DNA from: Planctomicrobium sp.
GTDB taxonomy: Bacteria; Planctomycetota; Planctomycetia; Planctomycetales; Planctomycetaceae
DNA length: 35,848 nucleotides
Direction: 5' to 3'
NCBI GenBank assembly: GCA_030626405.1
Contig: DAOUPA010000008.1
Span: 1 to 35,848 of the forward strand
Shown here: positions 6,391-13,431 of the stretch, in pieces
Position numbering within the stretch: position 1 is the first letter of the stretch
Layout of the letters: every line of letters starts with the position of its first letter
Translations under genes and position numbers: made by a program
Notes under the pieces: generated by a model
The model's input: only the letters and a program-made list of their open reading frames with translations
The model's database searches: none
What the model was told of the DNA's origin: nothing

Positions 6391-8406
6391 CTACTCCGAC
6401 TCGTTTTCGCTCTGCTCAGTATCAGTCGAACCGTCCTCATCAAGACTCTTCCTTGGTCCCATGATTTCTTCGAGCTGCTCTTTATCAACAACCTCGTTCT
6501 CCATGAGTGCGGTAACAAGTTCCTCAAGGATTTCTCGATTTTCTTCAAGTGTCCTGATTGCCAGATCCTGGGCTTCAAGCAGCACGACTCGCATTTCCTC
6601 ATCGATCAGGAATGCGGTTTGTTCGCTGTATTTACGAGCTTCATGTATTTCCTTGCCCAGGAACGGTTGCTCTTCGTTATCGCGGTAGGCAACGGGGCCG
6701 ATTTTTTCGCTCATTCCCCAGGTACTCACCATGCGACGGGCAATTTGTGACGAGCGTTTTAAGTCGCTTTCTGCACCAGCGGAATACTCATCAAAGATGA
6801 GCTTCTCTGCGGTGCGACCACCGAGCATCATCGCCAATTGTTGTCGGAGCCGAGTTTCGCCCATGTGGAATCGTTCTTCTTCTGGAACGAATTGAGTCAC
6901 CCCTAAAGCGCGACCACGTGGAACGATGGTCACTTTATGCACAGGGTCCACTTCCGGAAGCATCCAACCGATGATCGCATGCCCTGCTTCGTGGTAAGCT
7001 GTCATTCGGCGCTCTTTTTTGTTCATGATATCTTCGCGTGGCACGCCCATCATGATTTTGTCGCGGGCGGAATCGAAATCATCCATTTCGACCGCATCTT
7101 TTCCTTCACGAACTGCGTGCAATGCTGCTTCGTTAATCAGGTTGCGAAGTTCAGCTCCAGAGAAACCAATCGTACCATTCGCGACTTCCTTAAGGGCGAC
7201 CCCTTCGGCAAGTTTCACCTTCCGGGCGTGAACTTTGAGAATTCCGAGTCGACCTTCGCGGCTCGGACGATCGATCGCGACGTGGCGGTCAAAGCGACCT
7301 GGTCGCAGAAGTGCCGGGTCGAGAACATCTGGTCGGTTCGTTGCGGCGATGACAATCACCGCAGCCGATGACTCGAAGCCGTCCATCTCACTGAGGATTT
7401 GATTGAGTGTTTGCTCACGCTCGTCGTGACCACCTCCGACTCCTGCTCCTCGAACGCGACCGACAGCATCAATTTCGTCGATGAACAAAATGCAGGGAGC
7501 ATTTTCTTTCGCAGTGCGGAACATATCGCGCACGCGACTGGCTCCGACGCCGACGAACATTTGAATGAACTCGGAACCATTGATACTGTAAAACGGAACG
7601 CCTGCTTCCCCAGCAACAGCACGCGCAACCAATGTTTTACCGGTTCCAGGAGGCCCCATCAGCAGAACCCCTTTCGGCATCTCCGCACCGAGGCGTTGGA
7701 ACTTCGCTGGTTCTTTGAGAAACTCAACGACTTCTTGAAGTTCCTTTTTGGCATGGTCCATGCCCGCGACGTCATCAAATGTTGTCTGAGCATCACTCGG
7801 TTGAAAACGTTTTGCCTGACTCTTTACAAAGTTGCCAAACATTCCACCGGAACCCATGGGGTCTGAGGAACGACGCATCGCGAAAAAGAGAAATCCGACG
7901 AGTAGAATCAGAGGCAACAGGTAGAGCATCGACTGCATCAGCAGAATCGACATGTCTTCGTTCGTCGATCCATACTCGACGACACCGTTTTCTTCGAGAC
8001 GACGTAACAGGGATTCGTTTTCCTGATGAGGAACATTCGTCACGAACAAGTCCGCAATTTTCGGAGCTTTCACCTCTTTCGATTTCTCTGTGACACCTGT
8101 GTTGAGCTCTTTAACCATCGCTTCCATTGCGGTTTTGGTTTTTTCAACATCCTTCCACTCTCCGAGCAGTTTCAGCCCTTTGAGAGACGCAATTTTTACG
8201 TTCCCATCTTCGAGCTGAGTCAGAAAGAAGGAATATCCGACTTCGGTGCGGTTCGCATTATTGATTGCCTGCCATCCCCACATAGCGAGTATGAGGAATA
8301 ACAGAATCAGCAAATAGTACGGCATGCTGCTACGTTTCTGCGTGGCAGTTTTGTCCTGATTCGCGGTTCCGTCAGTCGATTCGTTCCGTTCCGGAGAATC
8401 CGTCAT
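6391..8406 (-). CDS. ftsH: ATP-dependent zinc metalloprotease FtsH
   Basis: The 671-aa product is a complete FtsH, the membrane-anchored hexameric AAA+ protease that degrades misfolded membrane proteins and some regulators. A short hydrophilic N-terminus precedes the first membrane helix (residues ~29-48). An extracytoplasmic domain follows, and the second helix is at ~153-177. The AAA module has Walker A GPPGTGKT (251-258), Walker [10 protein letters not shown] (305-313), the [11 protein letters not shown] pore-side segment and the second region of homology ([20 protein letters not shown]). The peptidase domain has the zinc motif HEAGH (472-476) and a downstream Asp ligand in SAGAESDL. All key residues are present. 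The start is ATG 8406, and the C-terminal tail is acidic and Ser-rich. It is transcribed divergently from the capsid-like cluster. Confidence 0.97.
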
Positions 8407-8765
8407 AAGTTAACTCTGATCCGAGATGTCAAATGTGTCTGCCTGAGAGCGAGATGAGACGCCTCAGTGACGGGCAACCCTACACAACAAAGGCATTTCT
8501 GGCAATTGCGGCGAACTCTAGAGCCTTGTCAGACCTTAAAATGGGATTGTGAATCTGAAGAAACCGCTCCGTTGTCGCCCCTGTCGGGTTTCTCAACATT
8601 CAAAATCAGGTGTTGAGGTCACGCTAGATTTTAGCCCACGAAGCGTTTTGACCACCCCTCGCAAGAATTTCTTTTTGCAACATCGCCGCGAAATGTTTCT
8701 CGAACTGGCGCAACCATCCCGAATTGGTTTGAAACCCTTCAATTCTCACAATTTGGCAAGGCACG
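8407..8765. other. Divergent promoter region between ftsH and the capsid-like cluster
   Basis: The 359 bp should carry the promoters of both flanking transcription units. I see a TTGACC at 8648-8653 that could serve as a -35 element for the plus strand, but no convincing -10 at the right spacing, and no clear sigma-54 -24/-12 element. An in-frame reading at 8549-8827 overlaps the protease gene in another frame and looks spurious. There is no strong hairpin. Confidence 0.5.
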
Positions 8766-9632
8766 ATGGATTCAATCACTCTCACCGAACGCTGCCAGGA
8801 CTGGAATCAGAATCTTTCGGTCGATGAAGACAACCGGCTCGTTAAGAATGTCGCTCTGAGCGGGGGACAGTCGCGAAACGGCTACACTTACTCGGAATCG
8901 GCTCTCCAGGAGGCAGTCCACCTCTACGAAGGAAAGCCGGTCTTTCTCGACCATGCTCGAGACCGGACCCGTCCTCAGGATCGCAGCACTCGTGATCTTG
9001 TCGGTTCTGTGACTCATGCGATTTTCAGCGAAGGCAGAATTCGCGGCGACATTCAGGTGCTCGACACCGAATCAGGGCAGATGTTCCTCAAACTTCTCGA
9101 AGTGGAGTCTCCCGGCATCGGCATGTCTCATGTCGTCAAGGCGAGACGATCTGCCGATGGAAAACTTGTTGAGCAAATTGCCGACGTCATCTCCGTCGAT
9201 GTCGTCGTCAACCCGGCGACCACCTCGACGTTTCGTGAGTCAATCGACGCGGAGGCTCAACAACCGAATGAACAGACTGAGGTGATGCAATGCCTTGACG
9301 AACAGGTGCTGCAACTCGAAAGCGAACGCGATCAGCTACTCAGTGAAAATCTGGAACTGAAGGCGCGCGTCGAATCTTTTCAACGGAAAGATCAGGTCAG
9401 CAGTCTCATCGCTGAATCCAATCTTCCAGATCAAGCAGTCACCGACTTCTTTGTGAAACAGCTTGAATCTGCCAGCGATCACAAGACTCGACGGCAAATG
9501 ATTCAAGACCGACTCCACATCGTTTCCGTCAATGGCGAACGTCAGCCTGCTATTCAAAGCCAGGAACGCACGCCTCTCTCAGAGTCGATCCAGAATGACG
9601 ACCACTTCGTGCAAGCCATCTGCCGAAAGTAA
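8766..9632 (+). CDS. Prohead-protease/scaffold-like protein (phage capsid maturation type)
   Basis: The 288-aa product reads as a phage prohead protease joined to a scaffold. The protease-like part is residues ~20-160. It has His63 in GKPVFLDHARDR, Ser121 in SPGIGMSHVVKA and Asp145 in ISVDVVVNPATTSTF. The order and spacing fit the His-Ser-acidic arrangement of HK97/U35-type and XkdF-like maturation proteases. The motif assignment is my reading and not a search result. Residues ~170-210 form a coiled coil rich in Gln, Leu and Glu, as expected for a scaffolding segment, and the rest is a helical tail. In phages such proteins cleave scaffold and capsid N-termini during head assembly. The two following genes look like cement and major capsid proteins, which strongly supports the call. 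No terminase or portal gene precedes it: the next gene upstream is ftsH on the other strand. Confidence 0.75.
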   Translation: MDSITLTERCQDWNQNLSVDEDNRLVKNVALSGGQSRNGYTYSESALQEAVHLYEGKPVFLDHARDRTRPQDRSTRDLVGSVTHAIFSEGRIRGDIQVLDTESGQMFLKLLEVESPGIGMSHVVKARRSADGKLVEQIADVISVDVVVNPATTSTFRESIDAEAQQPNEQTEVMQCLDEQVLQLESERDQLLSENLELKARVESFQRKDQVSSLIAESNLPDQAVTDFFVKQLESASDHKTRRQMIQDRLHIVSVNGERQPAIQSQERTPLSESIQNDDHFVQAICRK

Positions 9633-9646
9633 GAGACGACGGAAAT

Positions 9647-9717
9647 GGGGAATAGAAAATGGAGGAATGGAGATAAAACCTGGCCCACATCCTCCATTCC
9701 TCAATTCTCCATTCCCC
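9647..9717. repeat. Long imperfect hairpin between protease-like and cement-like genes
   Basis: GGGGAATAGAAAATGG (from 9647, continuing to 9672) pairs with a 26-nt right arm at 9692-9717 (CTCCATTCCTCAATTC and onward). Twenty-three of 26 positions match, with a 19-nt loop. It begins 14 bases after the protease-like stop codon. No T-run follows directly. It could be an attenuator, an RNA-stability element or an interspersed repeat. Confidence 0.75.
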
Positions 9718-9797
9718 TGCTCCTTCGCACTCCATCGAATCACAAATTACAGAATGGTCAATTCACCCTTCACCCCATTGCTTAAGAGTCGAACATT

Positions 9798-10274
9798 ATG
9801 AACAAACTTCGTTTTCGCTCAGGACAAGTCCAACTGCGAAAAGTCCGCGTCGATGCCAACTCAACAATCGAAGCGGGCGATCTCGTCTGGATGGACGGCA
9901 CCATCGCCAAGTCGGCAACGGATTTCGTCTGGAACACCGATCTCGCAACGACGCAGTCTGACTTCGCCGCCAAATTCCTGGGCATTGCTCACCAACCTTC
10001 AGGAGCCGGTGACTCGCTGCCGATCTCCGTCGACATCAGCCCTGACAGTGTGTACGAATTTGATTGCAGTCCCACGAACTACGAATTGGGACAGCCATTG
10101 GGCTCTGACGAAAATCTGGCGAGCCTGATGAACCAGCAACTCGAACCGGCACTCGCAGCCAATGCCATTGCCCGTGCTGCGGAATTCTCCAACGGCACCG
10201 TCTCAACAATTCGAGTGACGTTGACTTCTGCATATTCAACCTCCAGCGCGAACACCAACGCCAGTCTGGGGTAG
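9798..10274 (+). CDS. Capsid decoration/cement-like protein
   Basis: The 158-aa product is small, beta-rich and lacks Cys in its core apart from one. It opens with RFRSGQVQLRKVRVDANSTI, then EAGDLVWMDG, and later DFAAKFLGIAHQPSG and SVDISPDSVYEFDC. The pattern of an early 'source of value' beta segment, a GDLVW turn and an FLGIA strand followed by a G-E-F/Y-EF strand resembles phage head-decoration or DUF2190-like cement proteins. That is family resemblance by eye. A Ser/Thr-rich C-terminus (SAYSTSSANTNASLG) follows. It sits between a prohead-protease-like and a major-capsid-like gene, which is the usual place for a decoration protein in tailed-phage head modules. The start is ATG 9798 with a modest AAGAG upstream. 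Confidence 0.65.
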   Translation: MNKLRFRSGQVQLRKVRVDANSTIEAGDLVWMDGTIAKSATDFVWNTDLATTQSDFAAKFLGIAHQPSGAGDSLPISVDISPDSVYEFDCSPTNYELGQPLGSDENLASLMNQQLEPALAANAIARAAEFSNGTVSTIRVTLTSAYSTSSANTNASLG

Positions 10275-10340
10275 GCCACGACGTCTTTTCTCTCGCATAC
10301 TTCTTTCCAAACGAACTTTTCCAGAATAGATGAGGTCTCA

Positions 10341-11561
10341 ATGTACGGAACTCCAATCAAGACCCTGATTGAATCGCACGGTGCCGCTGGCTTTTATCAC
10401 AAAGTCGTGGAACTGTTGAACGAAAAGAAACTGACTCCTGATGACTTTTCCTATCGAGAACTTGCCGACGCCTGTGGTGTTCTCTCGCAATTACGATCGC
10501 TTCAGGAATCGAGTCAGTCGCTCGATGTCGCACTCAGTTCACCCAAGGCTCTGAACCATCTCCTACAGGAATCAAACCCAGGCGTCAGCAGCCATTTATT
10601 CCAGGTCGTCACTGGTGAACTGATCGGTCGAAAAGTGATCGATGGTTACGATGACGACTCCGGTTTCATCGGTGATCAACTTGTTACTGTCATCCCGAAC
10701 AGCTTGCGAAACACTCGTATCGCAGGCTTTCGCGCTCTGGCAGGACCGACTGAAGTTGAGGAAGGTCATTCTTATGAAGAATCGACTTTCGAAGAGAAGT
10801 TCGTCACTTCGCAAGAGTCTAAGCAAGGACGTATTCTCAGCATTAACGAAGAACTCATTGCCTTTGACCAGACGGGCGAAATCAACCGCCGGGCGATGGC
10901 TCTGGGGTATTACCTGCGTCAGGAAAGGGAACGAACAATCGTTCGCGCTGTGACTGATGCCGATGCTGGCGCTGGAAAACACGTTTACCGACCTTCTGGA
11001 AGTGGAGAGTCTCTCTACGCAACAGATGGCTCGAACCGTAACTATGTCGGCAGTTCGAATACGACATCGCCGGACTTTGCAGCACCGATTCCACTTGCTG
11101 ACTGGACGGACGTCGAAGAAGTTTTGAACTATCGAGCGACGGAAGTCAAAGACGACCGCATTGATGGTGACCAGCGCCCGATTGTTGTGCCGGCAAAACA
11201 GATCCTCGTTCCAGAAGCACTTCGAGGAACTGCCCGAAGTATCGTCAACTCAACGGAAATCAACGTCACGACCGCGGATGGTGAAACACGTTTCGCGAAT
11301 CCGGTTCACAACATGATGAACGTTCTCAGTTCGCCATTCATTGATGAACAAGGATCGGCTGCGAAAACGGATTGGTATGTCGGTGACTTCCAGCGTCAGT
11401 TCATCTGGACAGAAATCTGGCCGGTTCAAACCTTTCTGCAAAAGTCAGAAAGCTCCGCAGCGTTCGACCGCGATGTCGTCTTGAGAGTCAAAGCCCGCTA
11501 CTACGGTGGTATGAGTGCCGTCGACACGGCGTTCGTCACCAAGGTCAGTGGAGCCGCTTAA
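10341..11561 (+). CDS. Major capsid protein-like (HK97-fold type) protein
   Basis: The 406-aa product starts at ATG 10341 behind a good GAGG six bases away. Residues ~1-110 are helical, in the position of a delta or N-terminal arm domain. A capsid-core-like region follows with LFQVVTGELIGRKVIDGYDD, an E-loop-like stretch (EVEEGHSYEESTFEEKFVTS), a long spine-helix candidate (ALGYYLRQERERTIVRAVTD) and a Gly/Ser-rich segment (~225-245). Next come KQILVPEALRGTARSI and ANPVHNMMNVLSSPFID, and the C-terminus ends with VVLRVKARYYGGMSAVDTAFVTKV. The conserved layout of a value-lookup strand, a proline 'P-domain' stretch and a final R-V-R-x-x-x-G strand is typical of HK97-type major capsid proteins. 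Base use looks like that of neighbouring genes, which suggests an old resident. It closes the three-gene capsid cluster. Confidence 0.75.
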   Translation: MYGTPIKTLIESHGAAGFYHKVVELLNEKKLTPDDFSYRELADACGVLSQLRSLQESSQSLDVALSSPKALNHLLQESNPGVSSHLFQVVTGELIGRKVIDGYDDDSGFIGDQLVTVIPNSLRNTRIAGFRALAGPTEVEEGHSYEESTFEEKFVTSQESKQGRILSINEELIAFDQTGEINRRAMALGYYLRQERERTIVRAVTDADAGAGKHVYRPSGSGESLYATDGSNRNYVGSSNTTSPDFAAPIPLADWTDVEEVLNYRATEVKDDRIDGDQRPIVVPAKQILVPEALRGTARSIVNSTEINVTTADGETRFANPVHNMMNVLSSPFIDEQGSAAKTDWYVGDFQRQFIWTEIWPVQTFLQKSESSAAFDRDVVLRVKARYYGGMSAVDTAFVTKVSGAA

Positions 11562-12033: not shown

Positions 12034-13431
12034 CTAGAAAATCTGAGCGTGATTTTCGTAAGTGATGTCGTACTTTTTCATCTTCTTGTAGAGCGTCGTT
12101 CTATTGATGCCGAGCAGGCGAGCCGTTTCTTGTCGGTTCCAGCCATTTTGTTCGAGAGCATCCAGAATGATCTGCCGCTCCGGATTGGCAAGTGCAGATT
12201 TCAAGTTTGCGTTTCCTGCCAGACGGTTGATTGACATTGCTGATTCGACGGGATCACGCCGCAATTGTTCCGGAAGGTCATGAGAAGTAATCGTTTCGCT
12301 TTTCGAAAGCACGATAGCTCGCTCAACGATATTGACCAGTTCCCGGACATTTCCTGGCCAGTTGTAACGTTGAAGTGCCTGCATCGCTTGTTCGTCAAAA
12401 CCACGGACTTTCTTCCCGGTTTGCGAGTTGAACTCTTCAATGAAATGTTCCAGCAGCAGCGGAATGTCCCCGAGTCTCTCTCGCAGTGGCGGTTGTGTAA
12501 TCGAGATGACATTGATTCGGTAATACAAATCTTGGCGGAAGCTTCCATCTTGAACACGTGCTTCCAGATCATCGTTTGTTGCGAGAACCAAACGGACATC
12601 AACCTTGTGTGTTTTGCTGCCGCCGACGGCTTCGAATTCACGGTCTTGCAAGACGCGGAGAAGCTTCACTTGCAGGCTTGGTGAGGCTGTTCCGATTTCG
12701 TCAAGAAACAACGTGCCACCGTCGGCTTGGAGAAACTTCCCTTCTTTGTCGTGTGTGGCTCCGGTGAACGCACCTTGTACGTGACCGAACAATTCGCTTT
12801 CGAGAAGACTATCTGGCAGTGCTCCACAGGCGACCTCCACGAACGGTTTGTCTTTTCGGGAACTCATCTGATGAATCGCACGGGCGGTCATCGTTTTCCC
12901 AGTTCCGTTTTCACCGAGAATCAAAACTGTCGTTCGGGTGTCGGAGACGCTTTCGATCAAGTCGAACATCTTCGCCATTTTGTAATCGCGACCAATGATG
13001 TTTGAGATGCCGTGCTTTTCGTTAAGTTGCTTCTTTAATTTTTTGTTTTCTTCGACAATCTTCCGTTGCCCTAAGGCACGTTGGATCGAGAAATTCAGTT
13101 CGTCATCAATGACCGGTTTCGTAAGATAATCGAATGCTCCGAGACGAATTGCCTCGACGGCACTTTCGATAGTCCCGTATCCCGTTAACAGGATGACGGA
13201 CGTCTCTGGCTTGTTTTCAACAACCCATTCAAGAAGCTGAAAACCGTCTTGGTCAGGAAGATTGACATCGCATATTACAATCTGAAAATTGTATTCTTTG
13301 ATGCGATCTAAAGCTGCACGACACGTCATGGCCGTCTCGGTTCGATGACCGAGACTGCGGAGGTAGTCTGCCATGGCTTCGCAGATGTGACGGTCATCGT
13401 CAACAACAAGAAGGGAGCCTTGAGTGCTCAT
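12034..13431 (-). CDS. Sigma-54-dependent two-component response regulator (NtrC/AtoC family)
   Basis: The 465-aa product has all three domains of an NtrC-class activator. The receiver (residues 1-120) carries the acidic pocket DDD at 11-13, phospho-acceptor Asp55 in ICDVNLPD, Thr83 and Lys105. The AAA+ domain has Walker A GENGTGKT (173-180), the sigma-54-contacting GAFTGA loop (220-225), Walker B TLFLDEIG (240-247) and an arginine-rich sensor region. A Fis-type helix-turn-helix closes it ([20 protein letters not shown]). It should activate sigma-54 promoters when phosphorylated. No histidine kinase gene is adjacent, so it is an orphan regulator here. It faces the capsid-like cluster tail to tail and does not share an operon with it. 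The ATG at 13431 sits behind GAGAGA. Confidence 0.95.

Follow-up and report, generated by a model that had tools for sequence, protein, structure and literature searches.

Three consecutive genes in the window, by which is meant the whole stretch of 35,848 nucleotides analysed here, encode the prohead protease, the cement protein and the major capsid protein (MCP) of a tailed-phage head, and we consider them likely to be the capsid piece of an endogenised, vertically inherited and co-regulated phage-derived particle that is a candidate for an independently arisen gene transfer agent (GTA). That they belong to a co-regulated domesticated particle of some use is highly probable, and this particle probably carries the bacterium's own DNA between cells.

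The genes are intact open reading frames that lie between ftsH and the gene of a response regulator (Table 1), as the preliminary description of this DNA had it, and, also in agreement with it, their G+C content is that of their neighbours. No tRNA and no integrase was found in the window, and a functional prophage was ruled out since ten other proteins of the window showed no phage domain when scanned with Pfam and the loci discussed below are scattered. Structure prediction and profile searches had been named as checks on the assignment of the 406-aa protein as a capsid, and both confirm it. A match to Pfam PF25209 (Phage_capsid_4) covers most of the protein (E=9.7e-20), and its AlphaFold model (pLDDT 82) matches HK97-fold shells, including HK97 (1ohg), the RcGTA capsid (6tb9), many phages and encapsulins (VIA Z 12-14), with the capsid of EcCI2 also among the fold matches. 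Foldseek places encapsulins and phage capsids equally high for this model, so that the use of the capsid is not decided by the fold alone. The RVKA motif to which attention had been drawn is present at residues 382-385, although it stands about 20 residues before the end of the protein and does not form its C-terminus as had been supposed. No relative of the MCP was found among 50,697 phage records, PDB profile searches with the MCP and with the protease returned nothing useful, and a profile made from 40 capsids retrieved no PDB sequence at E<=1, though the PDB includes RcGTA capsids. Membership of the RcGTA-like family (Rhodogtaviriformidae) was rejected, the capsid being similar to that of RcGTA in fold only, with no sequence homology found by this profile.

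The model of the cement protein (pLDDT 91) matches capsid-stabilising or turret proteins, its best PDB matches being portal-capsid interface chains of HFTV1 and capsid proteins of Sf11, Pam3 and TW1, with lambda gpD matched weakly, and the protein is conserved within the class. The protease matches phrog_29592 (E=7.6e-12) and, weakly, a head maturation protease. Its His-Ser-Asp pattern (H63, S121, D145), noticed from the sequence at the outset, does not vary among 24 homologues, the most distant of which are about 25% identical. The naming of the three genes as a head-morphogenesis trio was thus correct.

Table 1. Features of the window and locations of the other particle genes in the same genome assembly.
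Feature	Position	Strand	Remarks
ftsH	6391-8406	minus	flanks trio
Promoter-like element, GCGCAACC-N14-TTGAAACCC	8708-8737	+	58 nt upstream of protease start
Prohead (head maturation) protease	8766-9632	+	288 aa; coiled-coil scaffold-like C-terminus
Stable hairpin between protease and cement genes	9633-9797		z -4.0; no repeat copies elsewhere, genome-wide
Capsid-stabilising (cement/decoration) protein	9798-10274	+	158 aa
HK97-fold MCP	10341-11561	+	406 aa
NtrC-type sigma-54 response regulator gene	12034-13431	minus	flanks trio
Piece A: HTH protein, ParB-like, ABC/GNAT, TerL	contig C330 (TerL)		
Piece B: portal	contig C402		
Piece C: protease, cement, MCP	the window		
Piece D: connectors, tail tube, tape measure, tail hub, MptE-like protein	contig C341 (tail)		
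Piece E: glycosyltransferase	contig C172		

The trio had been described as a stand-alone capsid module without terminase, portal or tail. This has to be abandoned, as these genes occupy other fixed loci of the same genome behind the same promoter-like element, and a stand-alone capsid or compartment was ruled out by the presence of portal, TerL and tail genes at these loci. TerL, portal, tail and glycosyltransferase were found as strong matches elsewhere in the window's own genus (Thalassoglobus), in which the particle genes are split over five chromosomal places (pieces A to E), and the set of head, packaging, connector and tail genes in the window's genome is complete. In the closed genome of a relative (G004) the MCP lies at 0.11 Mb, TerL at 3.51 Mb, the portal at 3.69 Mb, the tail at 3.71 Mb, about 15 kb from the portal, and the glycosyltransferase at 6.10 Mb; the window's genome is an assembly of 787 contigs and dispersal on the megabase scale is proven in closed relatives only. 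The neighbours of the pieces are ordinary host genes (ubiE, mraZ, transporters), as ftsH is for the trio. Conservation of the trio's place beside ftsH and the response regulator had been proposed as a further check, and both neighbours are kept across the genus, while mraZ is kept beside the portal in four species, ubiE beside TerL in three and permease genes beside the tail piece in two. The breakpoints are identical among the genus members examined and also in the sister genus (g11).

Family searches support the assignments of the portal, TerL, tape measure, glycosyltransferase and neck protein, and weakly that of the MptE-like protein. In six TerL sequences from five genera an RGHSKT resembling a P-loop, a CDE resembling Walker B and acidic residues like those of nucleases are invariant, save for an S/A exchange in the P-loop; their identification as ATPase-like and nuclease-like motifs follows what is generally known of terminases. 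Among the matches listed, TerL and the portal have only assorted phage matches, at about 25% identity or less. The tail-hub protein, encoded on contig C341 of the window's genome (L138, 9391-11334) and with homologues elsewhere (e.g. L040, 3053-4552), carries a long Ser-rich C-terminal tail. Given this tail and the occurrence of a glycosyltransferase and an MptE-like protein in the putative regulon, the protein may be an O-glycosylated tail fibre. Neither a lysis gene nor an activator nor a sure TerS was identified for the particle, and the HTH protein that heads piece A has been considered as a candidate small terminase or regulator.

Evidence that the pieces may be expressed together came from alignment of their upstream regions, which revealed the sequence GCGCAAC before each. 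All five pieces carry an element of the general form GCGCAACC-N13-15-TTGAAAC (GCGCAAC-N13-15-TTGAAAC) 58-74 nt upstream, GCGCAAC being placed in the window's genome at -58 for the trio, -60 for the tail piece, -64 for the HTH-TerL piece, -65 for the portal and -74 for the glycosyltransferase; at the last two sites the second half is degenerate. Apart from GCGCAAC, no 7-mer occurs in the 120 nt upstream of every one of the five lead genes of this genome, and of 20,000 random sets of five upstream regions not one had a 7-mer in common. Of 17 strict matches in the loci scanned, 15 stand no more than 150 nt upstream of a particle gene, and these come from at least five genera. When a matrix was trained on other genera only, the site at 8708 ranked first among the 140,530 positions of the loci of the window's genome, followed by the one before the tail piece, and in the three other members of the genus the protease and portal sites held the top two ranks. 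The glycosyltransferase was found first through the motif, in two species, and was then seen to match the contiguous cluster's own glycosyltransferase family (E ~1e-74), which may be counted as an independent success of the motif. As strict matches were in most genomes not enriched genome-wide over a reversed control, the argument from the motif rests on position. The spacing and position suggest a promoter of the extracytoplasmic-sigma type, through which the five pieces would form one regulon. A paralogue of the HTH protein of piece A, perhaps a regulator, lies downstream of a match to the same motif on contig 34 of another genome (G001; L246, 1637-1963). In a further genome (G006; L038) there are five near-identical copies of a GCGCAACAAA...GATGAC element, at 614, 1221, 5293, 6950 and 7508, of which four lie 111-134 nt before particle genes (ParB-like, portal, p139 and protease); this appears to be a lineage-specific version of the promoter-like element.

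Evolutionary distances of the particle genes were found to follow those of rpoB, with Mantel r of 0.72 for the MCP, 0.77 for the portal and 0.82 for TerL, and of 0.48-0.54 (p<0.001) for the same three when one genome per genus was used, a comparison in which the tail-hub gene did not track rpoB (p=0.46). The MCP, portal and TerL trees have respectively 5, 8 and 6 of 13 splits in common with the rpoB tree, where 2,000 label shuffles gave at most 3, and there is no conflict with it between strongly supported splits. The capsid has a median identity of 72% where rpoB has 76%. Pairwise dN/dS, for which several other pairs were saturated in dS, was 0.03 for the MCP, 0.03-0.06 for TerL, 0.05-0.08 for the portal, 0.11-0.12 for the tail and, against G004, 0.19 for the protease. 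As judged from these comparisons the MCP, portal and TerL are vertically inherited, co-diversify with the host and are under strong purifying selection. The suggestion in the preliminary description that the capsid was domesticated and maintained by selection is borne out, and one of the uses on its list, a transfer particle, agrees with the GTA reading; as a whole its interpretation is partly supported.

A GTA has been defined by six criteria, namely proteins derived from caudoviricetes that form tailed-phage-like particles, a fully endogenised genome that often occupies several loci, a head too small for that full genome, mostly vertical inheritance with co-diversification with the host, packaging of mostly random host DNA and delivery of the DNA to other cells (PMC9662315). 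In the present case the phage-derived proteins, known from genes alone, are the MCP, cement, protease, portal, TerL, neck protein and tape measure, and the set is fully endogenised at five places with conserved neighbours. Inheritance is mostly vertical for the MCP, portal and TerL and not clearly so for the tail hub. The pieces in G004, spanning 0.11-6.10 Mb, are too far apart for one head, and self-packaging would in practice be excluded by this distance. A motor, portal, protease, capsid and short tail that have long been kept in a scattered, non-mobile form are what a GTA leads one to expect. We propose that a dedicated sigma factor or activator would switch on the regulon in few cells or under some stress, so that all five pieces would be switched on together through the shared GCGCAAC-N13-15-TTGAAAC promoter. 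The prohead would then be built round the portal by the protease and capsid protein, and TerL would fill it with any host DNA that it encounters, since the genes of the particle itself lie far apart on the chromosome. A short siphovirus-type tail, predicted from the 286-aa tape measure to be about 40 nm long, would be added, and the finished particle would, after release, deliver host DNA to kin. A tailed, domesticated particle with a packaging motor could also be put to another use, such as the killing of competitors, delivery of a payload or feeding of kin, and this would account for the keeping of the whole particle, while the Ser-rich C-terminus of the tail hub and the glycosyltransferase would fit surface targeting. 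The strong constraint on TerL and portal implies, however, that DNA packaging matters, and no toxin gene was recognised in the pieces, so that such a use is unlikely.

In other genera of the family the particle genes form one contiguous cluster, TerL-portal-protease-cement-MCP-connector-tail, in which TerL is preceded by the HTH protein, ParB-like and ABC/GNAT genes and the MCP is followed by connectors, the tail tube, a tape-measure protein that is short (called at 207-291 aa across loci, with 227 aa in L040), tail proteins, the MptE-like protein and glycosyltransferases. A packaging and tail module beside orthologues of the trio had been expected to mark an ordinary recent prophage remnant. 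The module is there, but the set co-diversifies with its hosts, and a recent prophage was ruled out by synteny, trees and dN/dS. Relatives of the MCP were found in 30 of 59 related genomes, with 60-91% identity across the family and 70-91% in most of its members, and some family genomes have no set or only remnants of it (e.g. G027). A decayed copy in that genome (L152, 4900-11200), in which the last 23 capsid residues stand alone beside surviving tail genes, is a case of loss. A few in-frame stops occur in the particle genes of relatives. Across the class, MCP relatives were present in 123 of 397 genomes, nearly always in single copy, and related head modules occur in many families. In one of these (f11) 27 of 28 good genomes have the capsid, in most cases as one copy and with an identity of 72-85% to the query, with TerL, portal, protease, cement and MCP contiguous and no adjoining tail gene of the window family's kind. 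At one locus of this family (L201, 4000-18000) a small-terminase-like gene, TerL, portal, protease, cement, MCP and a laminin-G protein adjoin efp, and no tail genes are recognisable there. The capsid tree divides deeply into two lineages, one of f1/f8 and one of all the others, with a long branch between them, and one or two domestications are therefore both possible. A second, distant capsid (~30%) with a portal-like gene beside it, in T. neptunius (G001; L049, 9240-14222), is probably an unrelated prophage in the same genome.

These two deep lineages would also suit host-restricted phages or satellites that insert repeatedly and are vertical in appearance only, as would a phage-like metagenomic contig that has a 46% identical MCP together with cement, protease, tail, nucleotide-metabolism and methylase genes. 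Scattered pieces with conserved neighbours cannot, however, be one mobile element, the trees follow the host and the capsid is single-copy in nearly all genomes; repeated insertion is already contradicted for the window's genus and is quite improbable overall. An ordinary decaying prophage that has kept only its shell genes would be consistent with the clear phage origin of the head genes, the in-frame stops and the loss and remnants seen in relatives (G027). We regard it as very improbable, as the trio is intact at one place in the window's genus with an MCP dN/dS of 0.03, the capsid is almost as conserved as rpoB and the rest of the particle is maintained elsewhere with conserved motifs; this conservation already contradicts decay. 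A protein compartment without DNA, in which the capsid would be used as in encapsulins, is scarcely credible even though encapsulins are among the best fold matches and the trio stands alone within the window, given that a separate prohead protease with its triad and a cement protein adjoin the MCP, that the same upstream element stands before the portal, TerL and tail genes and that the trio includes no cargo gene.

To the broader account we would give even chances, namely that this is an ancient and vertically inherited GTA of the Planctomycetia, independent in origin of all known ones, whose core head-tail cluster was dissolved in Thalassoglobus and its sister genus with the parts joined by a promoter code, and of which a tail-less version, meaning head-and-packaging genes without tail genes of the window family's kind, is near-universal elsewhere, that is, in other families. 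If the GTA reading is true, a conserved GTA-like particle would provide a gene-exchange route for slow-growing planctomycetes with large genomes and would show to what extent a domesticated virus can be dispersed through a host genome and yet stay together as a regulon. This reading is directly testable, since genome-sequenced Thalassoglobus strains are in culture. Zavarzinella presumably belongs to a different order from the window's organism. The TerL of a Zavarzinella prophage is noted to be near the RcGTA TerLs (PMC7947584). GTAs have been named from Alphaproteobacteria, Brachyspira, Desulfovibrio and Methanococcus, with no mention of planctomycetes (PMC9662315, PMC11841831), and full-text literature searches, with preprints and most subscription papers outside their coverage, gave no published GTA in Planctomycetota.

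Among known systems, encapsulins share the HK97 fold, but they are without packaging, protease and tail genes and would be expected to have a dedicated cargo, which the trio does not encode. Capsid-forming satellites (cf-PICI) likewise have their own capsid and packaging genes, and the EcCI2 capsid resembles that of the window in fold; they are mobile and compact, whereas the planctomycete loci are fixed and scattered and no integrase accompanies the trio. The nearest phage-like relative is the IMG/VR contig mentioned above (L035; UViG_3300042476_000355), with homologues of the protease, cement, MCP, tube and tail, although the nucleotide kinase, DNA methylase and YfbR-like genes that adjoin them are as in an ordinary phage. 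The type I GTAs of Alphaproteobacteria (Rhodogtaviriformidae), with RcGTA, are also made up of vertically inherited siphovirus-type head, packaging and tail genes, have an HK97-fold capsid (6tb9) among the structural matches of the window MCP and are not confined to a single locus, R. capsulatus having five (PMC9662315). They belong to a different phylum, and the profile of the window capsid finds no solved relative by sequence; moreover RcGTA keeps a 17-gene cluster (PMC7947584), whereas in the window's genus the core head-tail cluster itself is broken up. BaGTA of Bartonella and the GTA of Brachyspira resemble the planctomycete set as independent domestications of tailed phages, though in other hosts, and the genes of BhGTA are likely to be dispersed as well (PMC9662315), like those described here.
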